The notes beneath the pieces are model-generated. The model was not told the DNA's origin, searched no databases, and saw only the letters and a program-made list of their open reading frames with translations. Both the position numbers and the translations under genes were made by a program. Below, piece after piece: positions 3,562-15,909 of a stretch of DNA of 33,527 nt (its first letter is position 1; every line of letters starts with the position of its first letter). Origin of the DNA: Chitinophagaceae bacterium (GTDB lineage Bacteria > Bacteroidota > Bacteroidia > Chitinophagales > UBA10324); contig CANJII010000037.1 of NCBI GenBank assembly GCA_947474435.1, positions 1 to 33,527 of the forward strand. Reading direction: 5' to 3'.

Positions 3562-4221
3562 TTAATCTTTCTTGTGTTTCAATACCTTGGCTTCAATATA
3601 AAAAATAATTTCTTCAGCAATATTTTTTGCTATGTCGCCAACTCTTTCAAGTTTCCGCACGGCTGATAAAACAAACAGCGATTCGTGCGTGTGTTCAAGG
3701 TTTGCTTTAATAAATTCTTCTGTCACTAATGCAGCATGTCTATTTAATTCGTTCAGCTTTTCATCTTGTTTAAAAACAGAATGAGCAAGCGAACTGTTTT
3801 CAGTTTCAAATGAACGGCATACATCGGTAAGCATTTTTTCAGCTACATCAAACATCTCAATCAACCCTATATTTTTAATCAATTCAGATGAAAACGGATT
3901 TCTGATTTCATAAATATAATTGGCTAATCCTTCTGCATTATCTGCAATCCGTTCGAGCGAAGAATTAATTTTCATGCAGGCAAGAACAAATCGTAAATCA
4001 ATAGCAACCGGATTGAGCAGCGCTAAAATGTTTTCGCAATCGCGATCAATCTTCAATTCAAGAGAATTGATGCGACGCTCATAAAAAACAATTTCGCGCG
4101 CAAGGTCTTTATCCAATGTAAGAAATGCTTTTTGTATTTTATTCATTTGCCCCAGTGTAAGAGTCATCATCTCTTTCATGTCTTCGCGAAGCCGCCGAAT
4201 TTCAACATCTAAATGAGTCAT
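3562..4221 (-). CDS. phoU: Phosphate signalling protein PhoU
   Basis: PhoU is a peripheral metal-binding protein that links the Pst transporter to the PhoR sensor kinase and restrains phosphate uptake. The 219-residue product consists of two PhoU helical-bundle repeats (about 10-95 and 115-205). The typical acidic metal-site stretches appear as SLERIADNAEGLANYI and RKLERVGDIAKNIAEE, both variants of the E/DxxxD signature. It is the last gene of the pstC-pstA-pstB-phoU cluster, 107 bases after pstB. That gap is AT-rich with several ATTAAA runs. It may hold a weak hairpin just after pstB (CCGAC and GTCCGG arms), but no clear promoter. PhoU at the end of the operon is the normal arrangement. No phoR or phoB lies in the window. 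Confidence 0.95.
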   Translation of the reverse strand: MTHLDVEIRRLREDMKEMMTLTLGQMNKIQKAFLTLDKDLAREIVFYERRINSLELKIDRDCENILALLNPVAIDLRFVLACMKINSSLERIADNAEGLANYIYEIRNPFSSELIKNIGLIEMFDVAEKMLTDVCRSFETENSSLAHSVFKQDEKLNELNRHAALVTEEFIKANLEHTHESLFVLSAVRKLERVGDIAKNIAEEIIFYIEAKVLKHKKD

Positions 4222-4328: not shown

Positions 4329-5081
4329 TTATCCGAATCGTCCGGTGATGTAATTCTGTGTTCGTTGGTTTTTCGGGTTGGTAAAAATTTCTTTTGTGTC
4401 GTTGTATTCCACTACTTCACCAATGTAAAAAAATGCAGTGCGGTCGCTCACACGCGCAGCTTGCTGCATATTGTGCGTGACAATTACAATGGTGTACTTG
4501 TCTTTTAACTCGTAAATCAGTTCTTCAATTTTCGCAGTACTGATTGGGTCGAGAGCAGAGGCAGGTTCATCCATTAAAACGATTGAAGGTTCAATAGCCA
4601 AGGCTCGGGCAATACACAACCGTTGTTGTTGTCCGCCTGAAAGTTCAAACGCACTTTTTTTCAACTTGTCTTTTACTTCTTCCCACAATGCAGCGTTTTG
4701 CAATGAGCGTGTTACCCTTTCTTCAATGTAGCTTTTATTTGAAATACCATTCACGCGTAAACCATAAGCAACATTTTCGAAAATAGTTTTTGGAAAGGGG
4801 TTGGGTTTTTGAAAAACCATTCCCACTTTTTTTCGCAGCTCATCTATTTTTATTCCTCTTGCATAAATGTCTTTGTTATCAATCAATACAGTTCCTTCAA
4901 TACGAACATTCTCAATCAAATCATTCATTCGATTTAACAGACGCAGGTAAGTAGACTTACCGCAGCCACTCGGACCAATTAATGCGGTAACCGTATTTGC
5001 TTTCATTTGCAAACTGATATTTTTCAGTGCATGATGTTCGCCGTAATAGAGATTTACATCTTTCGATTCTATTTTATACAT
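4329..5081 (-). CDS. pstB: Phosphate ABC transporter ATP-binding protein PstB
   Basis: PstB is the cytoplasmic ATPase that powers high-affinity phosphate import through PstC/PstA. The 250-residue product has full family length and every ABC motif: Walker [10 protein letters not shown] (about 36-44), Q-loop [15 protein letters not shown] (about 88-102) with the PNPFP signature typical of PstB, the ABC signature LSGGQQQRL (about 146-154), Walker [14 protein letters not shown], and the switch histidine in VTHN. It starts one base after the pstA stop, so translational coupling is likely. The [16 protein letters not shown] stretch near the C terminus is also typical of PstB. The protein looks fully functional. 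Confidence 0.98.
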
Positions 5082-5082
5082 C

Positions 5083-5937
5083 TCAATTCATTTTCACTTT
5101 TTTACTTAAAAATTTTCGCAGTGCATTTGCAATCAGGTTAGCAATTAATACAATTGCAACCAAAACCAATGCGGTTCCGTAAGCCATATCGCGCGATGCT
5201 TTAATATCTGTTCCACTTGTACTTAAAACATATAAATGATACGGAAGCGCCATTACCTGGTCGTACATGGATGTTGGTAATTTTGGTAAGTAGTAAGCAG
5301 CCACTGTAAAAAGTATCGGAGCGGTTTCGCCACTCACTCTTCCAATGGAAAGAATTAATCCGGTGATAATATTCGGAGTTGCTATTGGTAAAACAACCCG
5401 CCAGATGGTTTGCAATTTACTGGCTCCTAATCCATAACTCGCTAACCGGAATGAATCATTCACAGATTTTAATGCTTCTTCCGTTGTTCGAATCACAACA
5501 GGTAAAACCAATAATCCAAGTGTAAGTGAACCGGCAATAATTGAATCGCCGAAATGTAATTTGTTAACGAAGAGCGACATGCCGAACAAACCAAAAACAA
5601 TGGATGGAACACCAGCAAGATTGTTGGTCATTAGTTGTACAAATCTTTTGAAGAAACCATTTGGTGCATATTCATGAATAAAAATTCCACTCATCACCCC
5701 AATCGGAAATGCGAACAACATGCTTCCACCTACCAAACAAAATGTTCCGATGATGGCGGGGTAAATTCCACCCTTGGTCATTCCATCTTCTGGCATAGTG
5801 GTTAAAAATTTCCAGTTAATAACCCCTATTCCTTTTGAAATAATAAATCCAAGAATTAAAACCAGGAACAATACGACAAGCGAACTCATGATTCGCAAAA
5901 TCCAGAAAGCAATTTGTTGATTTATACTTTTGGTCAT
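5083..5937 (-). CDS. pstA: Phosphate ABC transporter permease PstA
   Basis: PstA is one of the two inner-membrane subunits of the phosphate importer. The 284-residue product has about six hydrophobic segments, the first at about 12-38. The cytoplasmic coupling (EAA) loop, [20 protein letters not shown], contacts PstB, and is followed by the conserved [13 protein letters not shown] stretch of PstA. The start is an ATG at 5937, one base after the pstC stop; the stop is one base before the pstB start. These spacings indicate one transcript with coupled translation. The length is normal for the family, in contrast with the enlarged PstC upstream. Confidence 0.97.
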
Positions 5938-5938
5938 G

Positions 5939-7177
5939 TTATGAAGCCACTCTTTTATTGCGACTCGAAATTATTTCGACTGCGAGGTTAACAATCATGG
6001 TAATAATAAAAAGAATGCAACCCAATGTAAAAAGCGCCTCATAATGCAAACCTCCCTGCGAAGCTTCTCCTAACTCAGCGGCAATGGTTGCAGGAATTGT
6101 TCTTACCGGTTCTAATAATGTATGTGGTATCACGGCTGCATTTCCGGTTACCATTAATACAGCCATTGTTTCTCCAATGGCGCGACCAATGCCCAGAATG
6201 GCTCCGGCGGTTATTCCTGATGAAGAATATGGAAGTATGACTTTAAAAATTGTTTGCCAGTGAGTAGCCCCCAAAGCAAGACTCGCTTCCTTCATGCTCC
6301 GAGGTGTGGTGCGAATGGCATCTTCAGAAATGGTGATGATGGTAGGAAGCGCCATAATGCCGAGAATTATACTTCCTGCCAATGCTGTTTCGCCAACAGG
6401 TAAATTAAAAGTGTTTTGTATGAACGGTACTACCACAACCAATCCGAAGAAACCATAAACCACAGATGGAATTCCGGCGAGCAATTCTATCACTGGTTTT
6501 AAAATATTCCGTACAGTGGGATGCGCAACTTCAGCCATGTATATTGCTGTTGCCAATCCAAGTGGCAGTGCAAACAGGATAGCAAAAATACTCACCCAAA
6601 AAGTTCCGAGTAATAACGGCAATGCACCAAATACGGCTACCGGATGGGCTGTCGGGAACCATAATTTTCCGAAAAGAAAATCACTTATTGTAATTTTATC
6701 AATCTTTAATTCTTTACCGGCAAAATTTTTATCAATGTATTTCTTCCCGACAAAAGCAATTATTCCCGGATTCGCTTCAACAACCCGACTGATACATTGA
6801 GGTAATCGTTCATAATTTTCACCTAAAAGTTTTATAACGCTATCGGGATTTTCGCGTTGTTCTTCAGTAAAAAAATCGGTGATATTATCCATTCGGAAAA
6901 GAATGATGCTATCGTTCCTTCCTCCAACTTTTTTCCAGTTGGTTATTTCACCATCGAAAATGAGTTTGATTTGTTCGGCATCCAGATGTTTTACATTGTT
7001 GGTTTTGTTCACCGCCATAATAAAACCTTCTTCAGTCGGTTTCTTACCGAATAAGCCTGAACCTTCGCTGAACAGAAAAATAACAATAAGCACAACGATG
7101 ATGCTGGTGACTGAACCACTCAGGTATAGCAGCACCGTGATAATTCGGCCGAAGATGTATGAAAGTATTTTTTTCAC
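5939..7177 (-). CDS. pstC: Phosphate ABC transporter permease PstC with an inserted PstS-like segment
   Basis: Inner-membrane subunit of the phosphate importer, and first gene of pstC-pstA-pstB-phoU. It is 412 residues long, against roughly 300-320 for classical PstC. After the first membrane helix (about 13-37) there is an insert of about 120 residues (52-170) before the permease core resumes near residue 178. The insert resembles part of a PstS-type (PBP-like) binding protein: AVNKTNNVKHLDAEQIK, then IFDGEITNWKKVGG, then IILFR, and later NPGIIAFVGKKYID. The usual phosphate-gripping SGT after the Arg is replaced (RMDNITDFF), so it may not bind phosphate itself. The core has the coupling loop EASLALGATHWQTIFKVILP and GIGRAIGETMAVLM. 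The start is GTG at 7177, five bases downstream of a perfect -7 box; GTG at codon 15 is an alternative. I recall long PstC forms in other Bacteroidota but cannot confirm that here. Confidence 0.93.
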   Translation of the reverse strand: MKKILSYIFGRIITVLLYLSGSVTSIIVVLIVIFLFSEGSGLFGKKPTEEGFIMAVNKTNNVKHLDAEQIKLIFDGEITNWKKVGGRNDSIILFRMDNITDFFTEEQRENPDSVIKLLGENYERLPQCISRVVEANPGIIAFVGKKYIDKNFAGKELKIDKITISDFLFGKLWFPTAHPVAVFGALPLLLGTFWVSIFAILFALPLGLATAIYMAEVAHPTVRNILKPVIELLAGIPSVVYGFFGLVVVVPFIQNTFNLPVGETALAGSIILGIMALPTIITISEDAIRTTPRSMKEASLALGATHWQTIFKVILPYSSSGITAGAILGIGRAIGETMAVLMVTGNAAVIPHTLLEPVRTIPATIAAELGEASQGGLHYEALFTLGCILFIITMIVNLAVEIISSRNKRVAS

Positions 7178-7182
7178 TCGCG

Positions 7183-7190
7183 CAAATTTA
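7183..7190 (-). promoter_or_regulatory. -7 promoter element of the pst operon (TAAATTTG)
   Basis: Exact match to the Bacteroidota TAnnTTTG element on the minus strand. It is separated from the pstC GTG by only five bases (CGCGA), so the transcript should begin at or next to the start codon. No TTG is present at the expected -33 distance, which is compatible with a promoter that depends on an activator; the Pho-box-like array further upstream could supply one. Confidence 0.65.
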
Positions 7191-7232: not shown

Positions 7233-7280
7233 TGTTAAATAATTGTTAAGAGTATTAAGAAAATGTTAAATAGATGATTA
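7233..7280 (-). promoter_or_regulatory. Pho-box-like array of TTAACA hexamers upstream of pstC
   Basis: On the pstC strand five hexamers occur in direct orientation: TAATCA (7280-7275), TTAACA (7269-7264), TTAATA (7258-7253), TTAACA (7249-7244) and TTAACA (7238-7233). Successive starts are 11, 11, 9 and 11 bases apart, about one helical turn. PhoB and PhoP response regulators bind direct repeats with 11-base periodicity, and TTAACA-like hexamers are the Bacillus PhoP half-site. The array ends 42 bases upstream of the pstC -7 box, a suitable place for an activator. The assignment to a PhoB-type regulator is inference; the region is AT-rich, so chance contributes. Confidence 0.5.
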
Positions 7281-15829: not shown

Positions 15830-15850
15830 TTTAACAAGCGGTATGTTAAA
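15830..15850. repeat. Inverted repeat TTTAACA-N7-TGTTAAA in a divergent intergenic region
   Basis: Perfect 7-base arms (15830-15836 and 15844-15850) with a 7-base spacer, between the divergent J-like gene and gcvP. Centre-to-centre spacing of the arms is 14 bases, compatible with a dimeric repressor or activator site. It lies 60 bases upstream of the gcvP -7 box and about 63 bases upstream of the J-like start. No T-run follows it, so it is not an obvious terminator. Confidence 0.4.
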
Positions 15851-15909
15851 GTGTTGTGAATAACGGCATTCGTATATTTCTATTGCCCTTCGAATTGTCA
15901 TTTGTCCGT

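Follow-up and report, generated by a model that had tools for sequence, protein, structure and literature searches.

Four TTAACA-like hexamers in direct repeat precede pstC in the genome of a Chitinophagaceae bacterium and, judging from sequence, this array very probably serves the pstCAB-phoU operon as its operator, a Pho box read by a PhoB-type regulator that would activate a promoter without a -33 element. That PhoB is the reader, that its effect is activation and that low phosphate is the signal is what we infer; the array itself was confirmed as real and beyond chance. The window analyzed was the whole stretch of 33,527 nucleotides (nt) of contig CANJII010000037.1 (assembly GCA_947474435.1), and the 3.5-Mb genome to which it belongs is labelled G000. 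The initial annotation had proposed a candidate Pho box at this place. The proposal was supported by the occurrence of the array at pstC in 6/6 genomes of the genus, by similar hexamer pairs at phoB, a porin gene and pstS, and by pairs at PstS, PiT and porin genes across the phylum.

Array and promoter upstream of pstC

The minus strand from 7269 to 7233 was read directly as TTAACA-TTTTC-TTAATA-CTC-TTAACA-ATTAT-TTAACA, with the four hexamer starts spaced 11, 9 and 11. The features of the region were the following.

7264..7269, minus strand: half-site 1, TTAACA, by direct reading; columns partly conserved in the six genus genomes
7253..7258, minus strand: half-site 2, TTAATA, 11 after half-site 1; TTAACA in the five other genus genomes
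7244..7249, minus strand: half-site 3, TTAACA, 9 after half-site 2; identical in 6/6 genomes
7233..7238, minus strand: half-site 4, TTAACA, 11 after half-site 3, ending 42 nt before the -7 element; identical in 6/6 genomes
7275..7280, minus strand: TAATCA, the fifth hexamer of the initial annotation, with two mismatches; columns not conserved among the six genus promoters
7183..7190, minus strand: -7 promoter element TAAATTTG; the same in 6/6 genus genomes, 41-42 nt after the array

Five hexamers with starts spaced 11, 11, 9 and 11 had been described. Direct reading agreed with this spacing, TAATCA starting 11 upstream of half-site 1, and four of the hexamers held in both coordinates and spacings; the fifth was weak. 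TAATCA (7275-7280) was rejected as a part of the box on account of its two mismatches and its lack of conservation in the six-promoter alignment, and it probably lies outside. Direct reading also bore out that the array ends 42 nt before a -7 box lacking a -33 element: no TTTG was present in the 42-nt stretch between the array and TAAATTTG. We take TAAATTTG to be the -7 element and TTTG to be the -33 element of the Bacteroidota consensus, as did the initial annotation. The 11-bp direct-repeat periodicity expected of a Pho box was found at pstC, with one interval of 9.

The GTG start codon of pstC (7177) was located 5 nt downstream of TAAATTTG (7190-7183). In the relatives that were read, too, the start codon follows the -7 element after only 5 nt at pstC (window 7177-7190) and 7 nt at phoB (locus L031, 1468-1485), a proximity suggesting that the pstC and phoB messenger RNAs may be leaderless.

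The array compared with chance

Single TTAACA words showed no enrichment in the window, with 30 occurrences against an expected 34. The pstC intergenic region (253 nt, 74% AT) was shuffled by dinucleotides and both strands were scored by the mismatches over four hexamers at steps of 9-12. The real array carries one mismatch, and 0/20,000 shuffles matched this score, the best one having two mismatches and appearing once. When the whole G000 genome was searched with a slightly looser four-hexamer pattern (5 of 6 letters per hexamer, up to three mismatches), the window site was found with one mismatch together with one other place with three, and the reversed control gave 2 places at up to three mismatches.

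Exact TTAACA pairs in the genus were most frequent at a start-to-start distance of 11 (22 pairs), followed by 21 (18 pairs), the 16 other distances averaging 6.2; this count covered four of the six genus genomes, left out 19 listed G003 rows and 10 rows of one tandem repeat of G005, and had no rows listed for G000. On the other hand, the two-hexamer pair with up to two mismatches was found 750 times (383+367) in the host genome versus 1452 times (713+739) for the reversed control. Being outnumbered by its control, the pair does not predict sites by itself, and loose motif counting at this threshold was rejected as a predictor.

An accident of AT-rich intergenic sequence could be argued from the base composition of the region, from the unenriched TTAACA words and from the rarity of the loose pair. 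It was rejected by the own-genome search, the shuffles, the search of 16 genomes described below and the conservation at orthologous pstC genes; the promoter-phased pairs found across the phylum also stand against it, and its probability is vanishingly small. Regarding the question of whether such arrays are equally common elsewhere, the answer was negative, with no reversed-control match in 16 genomes and no shuffle reaching the array score, the background frequency being judged by reversed patterns and shuffles and not by sampled random intergenic sites.

Conservation within the genus

The 11/9/11 pattern, allowing up to three mismatches, was searched in 16 genomes of the family. It was found at one place in each of the six genus genomes (6/6), always at the start of pstC, and at one extra place in genome G007, while the reversed control had no match in any genome. 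In all six genus genomes the -7 element followed 41-42 nt downstream of the array, and then the same GTG start; for G002, whose contig ends just inside the start of pstC, no pstC match is listed. The alignment of the six regions showed half-sites 2-4, the spacers and the -7 element to be nearly invariant, half-site 1 to vary and the sequence further upstream to be scrambled. Conservation upstream of orthologous pstC genes, which had been named as a check of the initial annotation, was thus seen throughout the genus. The four-hexamer match of G007 precedes a protein with a type IX secretion system tail and is probably due to chance.

Phasing to the -7 element across the phylum

An evenly drawn sample of 296 Bacteroidota genomes was searched for the exact pattern TTAACA-N5-TTAACA-N30..32-TAnnTTTG, which was found in 28 genomes, one match each, against 2 matches of the reversed control. 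When the gap was opened to N5..35, 94 places in 68 genomes were obtained versus 8 reversed-control matches. The gaps of these places were far from uniform: 15 at 8-9, none at 10, 38 at 19-21, 27 at 30-32, and 14 spread over 22 other gaps, so that 80/94 places were in phase, i.e., at about 9+11k nt from the -7 element. After collapsing sequences more than 75% alike, 57/71 places remained in phase (binomial p 5e-19 against 9/31). The promoters of G128 and G136 had been counted at two steps each, and dropping the second count gave 78/92. A Rayleigh test was made on 12 promoters picked by eye, and the phasing claim rests on the gap scan instead.

The nearest pairs ended 8 nt before the -7 element in a scan starting at 5 nt. 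In the full form, seen in some families and for example in loci L236 and L241, four repeats (up to one mismatch in one of them) follow each other in 11-bp steps and end 9 nt before the -7 element. The window array, with its gap of 42, fits k=3 of the 9+11k series; k=2 was found at phoB and the porin gene, and k=0 to 2 in other Bacteroidota.

Related boxes in the host and its relatives

Pairs were found upstream of other phosphate genes in addition to pstC, namely phoB, porin and pstS genes and, across the phylum, PstS, PiT and porin genes, without being universal. The phoB gene of the host (contig C8) is preceded by TTAACC-TTTAC-TTAACA, 31 nt before TACTTTTG. Seven phoB orthologues at least 88% identical were obtained, with the start readable in six (that of G002 is cut at a contig end). 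In 5/6 (G000, G003, G004, G005, and G010) TTAAC[CT]-TTTAC-TTAACA stood exactly 31 nt before TACTTTTG, and G001 deviated. G010 belongs to another genus. In all five the block and the gap were kept while the flanks differed.

Upstream of the porin gene, a perfect pair 31 nt before a one-mismatch -7 element was present in the four genomes where the start was read (G000, G002, G003, and G005), carrying a different spacer in each. The porin of the host was assigned to Porin_O_P by Pfam at 20.0 bits, under the cut-off of 20.9, and those of G002, G003, and G005 were assigned by their similar starts and their position before pstS. The pstS gene had a one-mismatch pair in five genus genomes, including the host. 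An exopolyphosphatase gene (ppx) is divergent from the porin gene and shares its upstream region; on its side, a one-mismatch pair was present with no -7 element within reach.

Throughout the host genome, TTAACA-N5-TTAACA with up to one mismatch was found at 58 places, which were sorted by a simple open reading frame (ORF) rule: 27 lay within long ORFs, 17 preceded an ORF of the same strand and 14 fell in neither class. For five of the 58 a perfect TAnnTTTG lay no more than 60 nt away; the gaps were 8 (PEPCK), 31 (phoB), 42 (pstC), 43 (FKBP), and 43 (a gene with no Pfam match), all near 9 plus a multiple of 11.

Several further sites were observed. At the PEPCK gene (G000:C20:49994-50026; L003, L247) a perfect pair lies 8 nt before TATATTTG, and G003 and G004 contain this 17-mer as well. 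A receiver-only response regulator (G000:C21:47628-47984; L004, L036) has a perfect TTAACA-N5-TTAACA 59 nt upstream, and short receivers resembling it were found in G002, G003, G004, G005, and G007. Two arrays with 11-bp steps (L002 and L006, on G000:C12 and C33) have conserved TCA spacers and read TTAACAAGTCATTAACA followed by two TAAC repeats, with a perfect -7 element 43 nt downstream; one of the arrays lies between a histidine-kinase-like gene (by eye) and the FKBP gene, and may belong to that kinase's own regulator. Within the window, TTCACA-ACACT-TTAACA on the minus strand (15844-15860), followed by TAAATTTA after 32 nt and by a DnaJ-domain gene after 76 nt, is a weak candidate for a site of the same kind.

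Regulator, mechanism and alternative readings

The product of the C8 gene was the best PhoB match of the genome (222 bits against TIGR02154, cut-off 296), and the gene after it encodes a PhoR/PnpS-like kinase. The genome thus holds a PhoB/PhoR pair with a box at phoB, both proteins scoring under the curated cut-offs. According to the proposed mechanism, phosphate shortage would lead to the phosphorylation of a PhoB-type regulator, most likely from the phoB-phoR pair at G000:C8; phosphorylated PhoB would bind the TTAACA repeats head to tail, and bound PhoB would help RNA polymerase to start at a promoter with a good -7 and no -33 element, the helical face of the repeats being fixed with respect to the -7 element (a distance of about 9+11k nt). 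A good -7 element, the absence of a -33 element and repeats locked to one helical face fit activation by a regulator touching the polymerase from a fixed side. In the portions of the sources consulted, PhoB-family regulators bind head to tail on direct repeats (PMC4415409), and PhoB of Bacteroides fragilis binds its own pstC promoter, pstC expression dropping to a trace without it (PMC3547664).

Several observations weigh against this reading. One interval of the pstC array measures 9 bp rather than 11. The C8 PhoB homologue scored below the cut-offs of TIGR02154 and NF053854, and the kinase below its own. No TAnnTTTG-like element, with up to one mismatch, was within reach of the pstS boxes in the five genus genomes. 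Pairs with up to one mismatch were missing from 7/9 pstS regions of other genera of the family (by eye), from 12/14 stretches upstream of pst genes (10 of the 14 belonging to other families of the order and four to the own family; the two with a pair were L186 and L192, the latter being the pstS site of G007), and from 25 of the 30 top-scoring pstS loci in a sample of 118 genomes of the phylum. The five remaining loci had the pair at a spacing of 11, and the 16 other spacings from 8 to 24 gave a single one, at 22. In the host genome itself the N30-32 pattern was not matched, and the N5-35 scan yielded the PEPCK site alone; the genome is nearly absent from these scans because the pstC gap is 42 and the phoB pair has one mismatch. 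Some genes behind boxes are not obviously linked to phosphate, i.e., those for PEPCK, FKBP, the receiver-only regulator, MarR, YceI and an FkbM methyltransferase. Finally, G007 has a pstS box 31 nt before TACCTTTG, yet its best PhoB match is only 38% identical.

This last case, a pstS box without a close PhoB, would suit another OmpR-family regulator as the main reader, for instance the YycF/RprY-like one at G000:C2, found widely across the family, or a relative of PhoP of Riemerella anatipestifer, TTAACA repeats then being an operator that several such regulators share. The sites of the host before FKBP, PEPCK and the receiver-only regulator would suit it too, as would the R. anatipestifer PhoP sites, whose 583 DAP-seq peaks have TTTAACA as best-conserved letters in an ArcA-like motif, according to the part of the report available (PMC9603813). 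Nevertheless, the recognition helix of the C2 regulator is TIDNFILAF versus TIDVHIRKL in PhoB, and downstream genes across the phylum are rich in phosphate transport. Moreover, no pair was found within 200 nt upstream of the C2 regulator, whereas phoB has one; this point is weakened because the C2 gene seems to follow a kinase gene and its promoter may sit further upstream. Overall, such a reader was considered improbable.

It was judged less probable still that the bound regulator mainly represses pst, or both represses and activates. The far upstream position of the pstC array with respect to the -7 element would suit such a role, as would the 8-fold rise of pstS messenger RNA in a phoPR double mutant of R. 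anatipestifer, given in the accessible text of that study (PMC5399024). Against repression stand the lack of a -33 element in the promoter, the nearest pairs of the gap scan (begun at 5 nt) ending 8 nt before the -7 element, and the requirement of PhoB for pstC expression in B. fragilis, as far as the portion consulted goes (PMC3547664). PhoB-type activation of pstC was the preferred reading.

A free-standing PhoB-type DNA-binding domain without a receiver was observed at G000:C66:7373-7696 (L139, plus strand), in the region that also holds ppx and the porin gene. It has 96 residues from ATG (G000:C66:7406-7693) or 107 from TTG, and is 57% identical to PhoB residues 139-224. Homologues were found, among the matches listed, in G001, G002, G004, and G005. 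A TTACCA-ATTTG-TTTACA-like element precedes the gene in G000, G002, and G005, in a looser form in G001, and is not found in G004. An extended model, put forward tentatively, would give the phosphate promoters of Bacteroidota a helical ruler: TTAACA repeats would be set out in steps of 11 bp, beginning 9 nt upstream of the -7 element and leading away from it, and any in-phase subset of steps would work. The genus would have two readers, PhoB and the receiver-less domain, and the latter could hold sites independently of phosphorylation. The isolated effector domain of Escherichia coli PhoB binds DNA, according to the part of the source seen (PMC4415409); the isolated DNA-binding domain of R. anatipestifer PhoP showed no DNA binding in the available portion of its report (PMC9603813), which weighs against the receiver-less domain as a second reader.

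The pst operon

The operon behind the array consists of pstC, pstA, pstB and phoU.

5939..7177, minus strand: pstC, phosphate ABC permease, GTG start (TIGR02138, 305.6 bits)
5083..5937, minus strand: pstA (TIGR00974, 297.2 bits)
4329..5081, minus strand: pstB (TIGR00972, 413.4 bits)
3562..4221, minus strand: phoU (TIGR02135, 160.6 bits)

Residues 50-163 of PstC, N-terminal to the permease domain, contain a PstS-like piece (TIGR02136 positions 120-238), which was also present in the pstC frames of G001, G003, G004, and G005.

Genes downstream of phased boxes

For the 28 loci with gaps of 30-32, 21 downstream proteins were scanned by Pfam, and 10/28 loci stand before genes of phosphate transport. 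About 340 and 230 nt separate the -7 element from the gene start in L240 and L242, respectively, and for L219 and L226 no downstream ORF was obtained. The Pfam assignments were as follows.

L233, L240, L243: PBP_like_2 (PstS type)
L234: PHO4 (PiT)
L235, L237, L239, L241, L242: Porin_O_P
L245: PstC-like ABC permease (BPD_transp_1 only)
L236, L238: TonB-dependent receptors
Other nine of the 21: MarR (two), YceI, MauE/DoxX, DUF6252 (below cut-off), HisG, carboxypeptidase-regulatory domain, no family (two)

A further 40 loci of the gap scan were read (L247-L286, four of them out of phase), and 26 of their proteins were scanned; L247 is the PEPCK site of the host. Pfam gave no family for L262.

L257, L258, L267, L268, L270, L271: DUF47, followed by a PHO4 gene in all four loci examined for one
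L272, L281: PstS type
L269: phosphoesterase
L248: PHO4, below cut-off
L273, L275, L279, L280, L282: TonB-dependent receptors
L286: outer-membrane barrel
L274: histidine kinase
Remaining nine of the 26: FkbM methyltransferase, YceI, TetR, FGE-sulfatase, propeller protein or no family

The enrichment of phosphate genes behind phased boxes is a plain reading of these assignments, made without comparison to genes behind random sites. A MarR gene of one genus was met in six sampled genomes (L222, L223, L225, L228-L230), its promoter containing the pair, the palindrome TTTGTATATACAA, and TACATTTG 31 nt on; the Pfam assignment was made on L222 only, and the other five look orthologous.

Comparison with known operators and significance

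In the PhoP operator of Bacillus subtilis, direct repeats resembling TTAACA stand upstream of phosphate genes at intervals of about 11 bp, often four successive ones on the coding strand, and TTAACA matches the Bacillus PhoP half-site. The window array shares the tandem TTAACA-like half-sites (three TTAACA and one TTAATA), and the Bacteroidota four-repeat form ending 9 nt before the -7 element (L236, L237, and L241) resembles that operator closely. It differs in belonging to another phylum and in its -7 element TAnnTTTG in place of a -10 TATAAT; furthermore, 42 nt separate the pstC array from the -7 element, and one step of the array measures 9 bp. In the E. coli-type Pho promoter, the box is fixed over the -35 region, or replaces it, next to the -10 element. 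This arrangement was not found at pstC, with its 42-nt gap, but 15/94 of the phylum places, at 8-9 nt, do have it. The E. coli Pho box itself is described, in the portion seen of the source, as two 11-nt direct repeats with the core CTGTCAT (PMC4415409). The present system likewise combines direct repeats of 11 nt with boxes at pst and phoB and with a genome-encoded regulator of the PhoB family. Its half-site is TTAACA rather than CTGTCAT, and the distance to the promoter is modular (about 9+11k).

R. anatipestifer belongs to the same phylum as the host. The DAP-seq motif of its PhoP has the same best-conserved letters, TTTAACA, and is compared by the authors to ArcA; unlike here, the part of the article available has no occurrence of "pst" in the main text and no 11-bp phasing to a -7 element in the motif section (PMC9603813). 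In B. fragilis, likewise, a Bacteroidota PhoB binds a 512-bp pstC promoter fragment, but "motif" and "consensus" do not occur in the text available (PMC3547664). The Pho boxes near plcP in marine bacteria were also predicted bioinformatically, in gene clusters from a range of bacteria, with Flavobacteria among the groups studied, but the accessible part gives neither a box sequence nor a word on any marked Bacteroidota gene (PMC4796936). Phosphate regulons of Bacteroidota have been measured by expression in B. fragilis and Flavobacterium, as far as the partly accessible sources tell. No published Pho-box consensus for Bacteroidota was found in a literature search, which misses most subscription journals and saw its sources in part. 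The kind of element is known; new, as far as could be seen, are its sequence in Bacteroidota and its distance of 9+11k from the -7 element.

These results offer a searchable Pho operator for Bacteroidota, which could help to predict the genes responding to phosphate shortage. The 9+11k gap rule sharpens such prediction far beyond the hexamers alone and provides a simple, testable activation geometry for the unusual promoter of this phylum.
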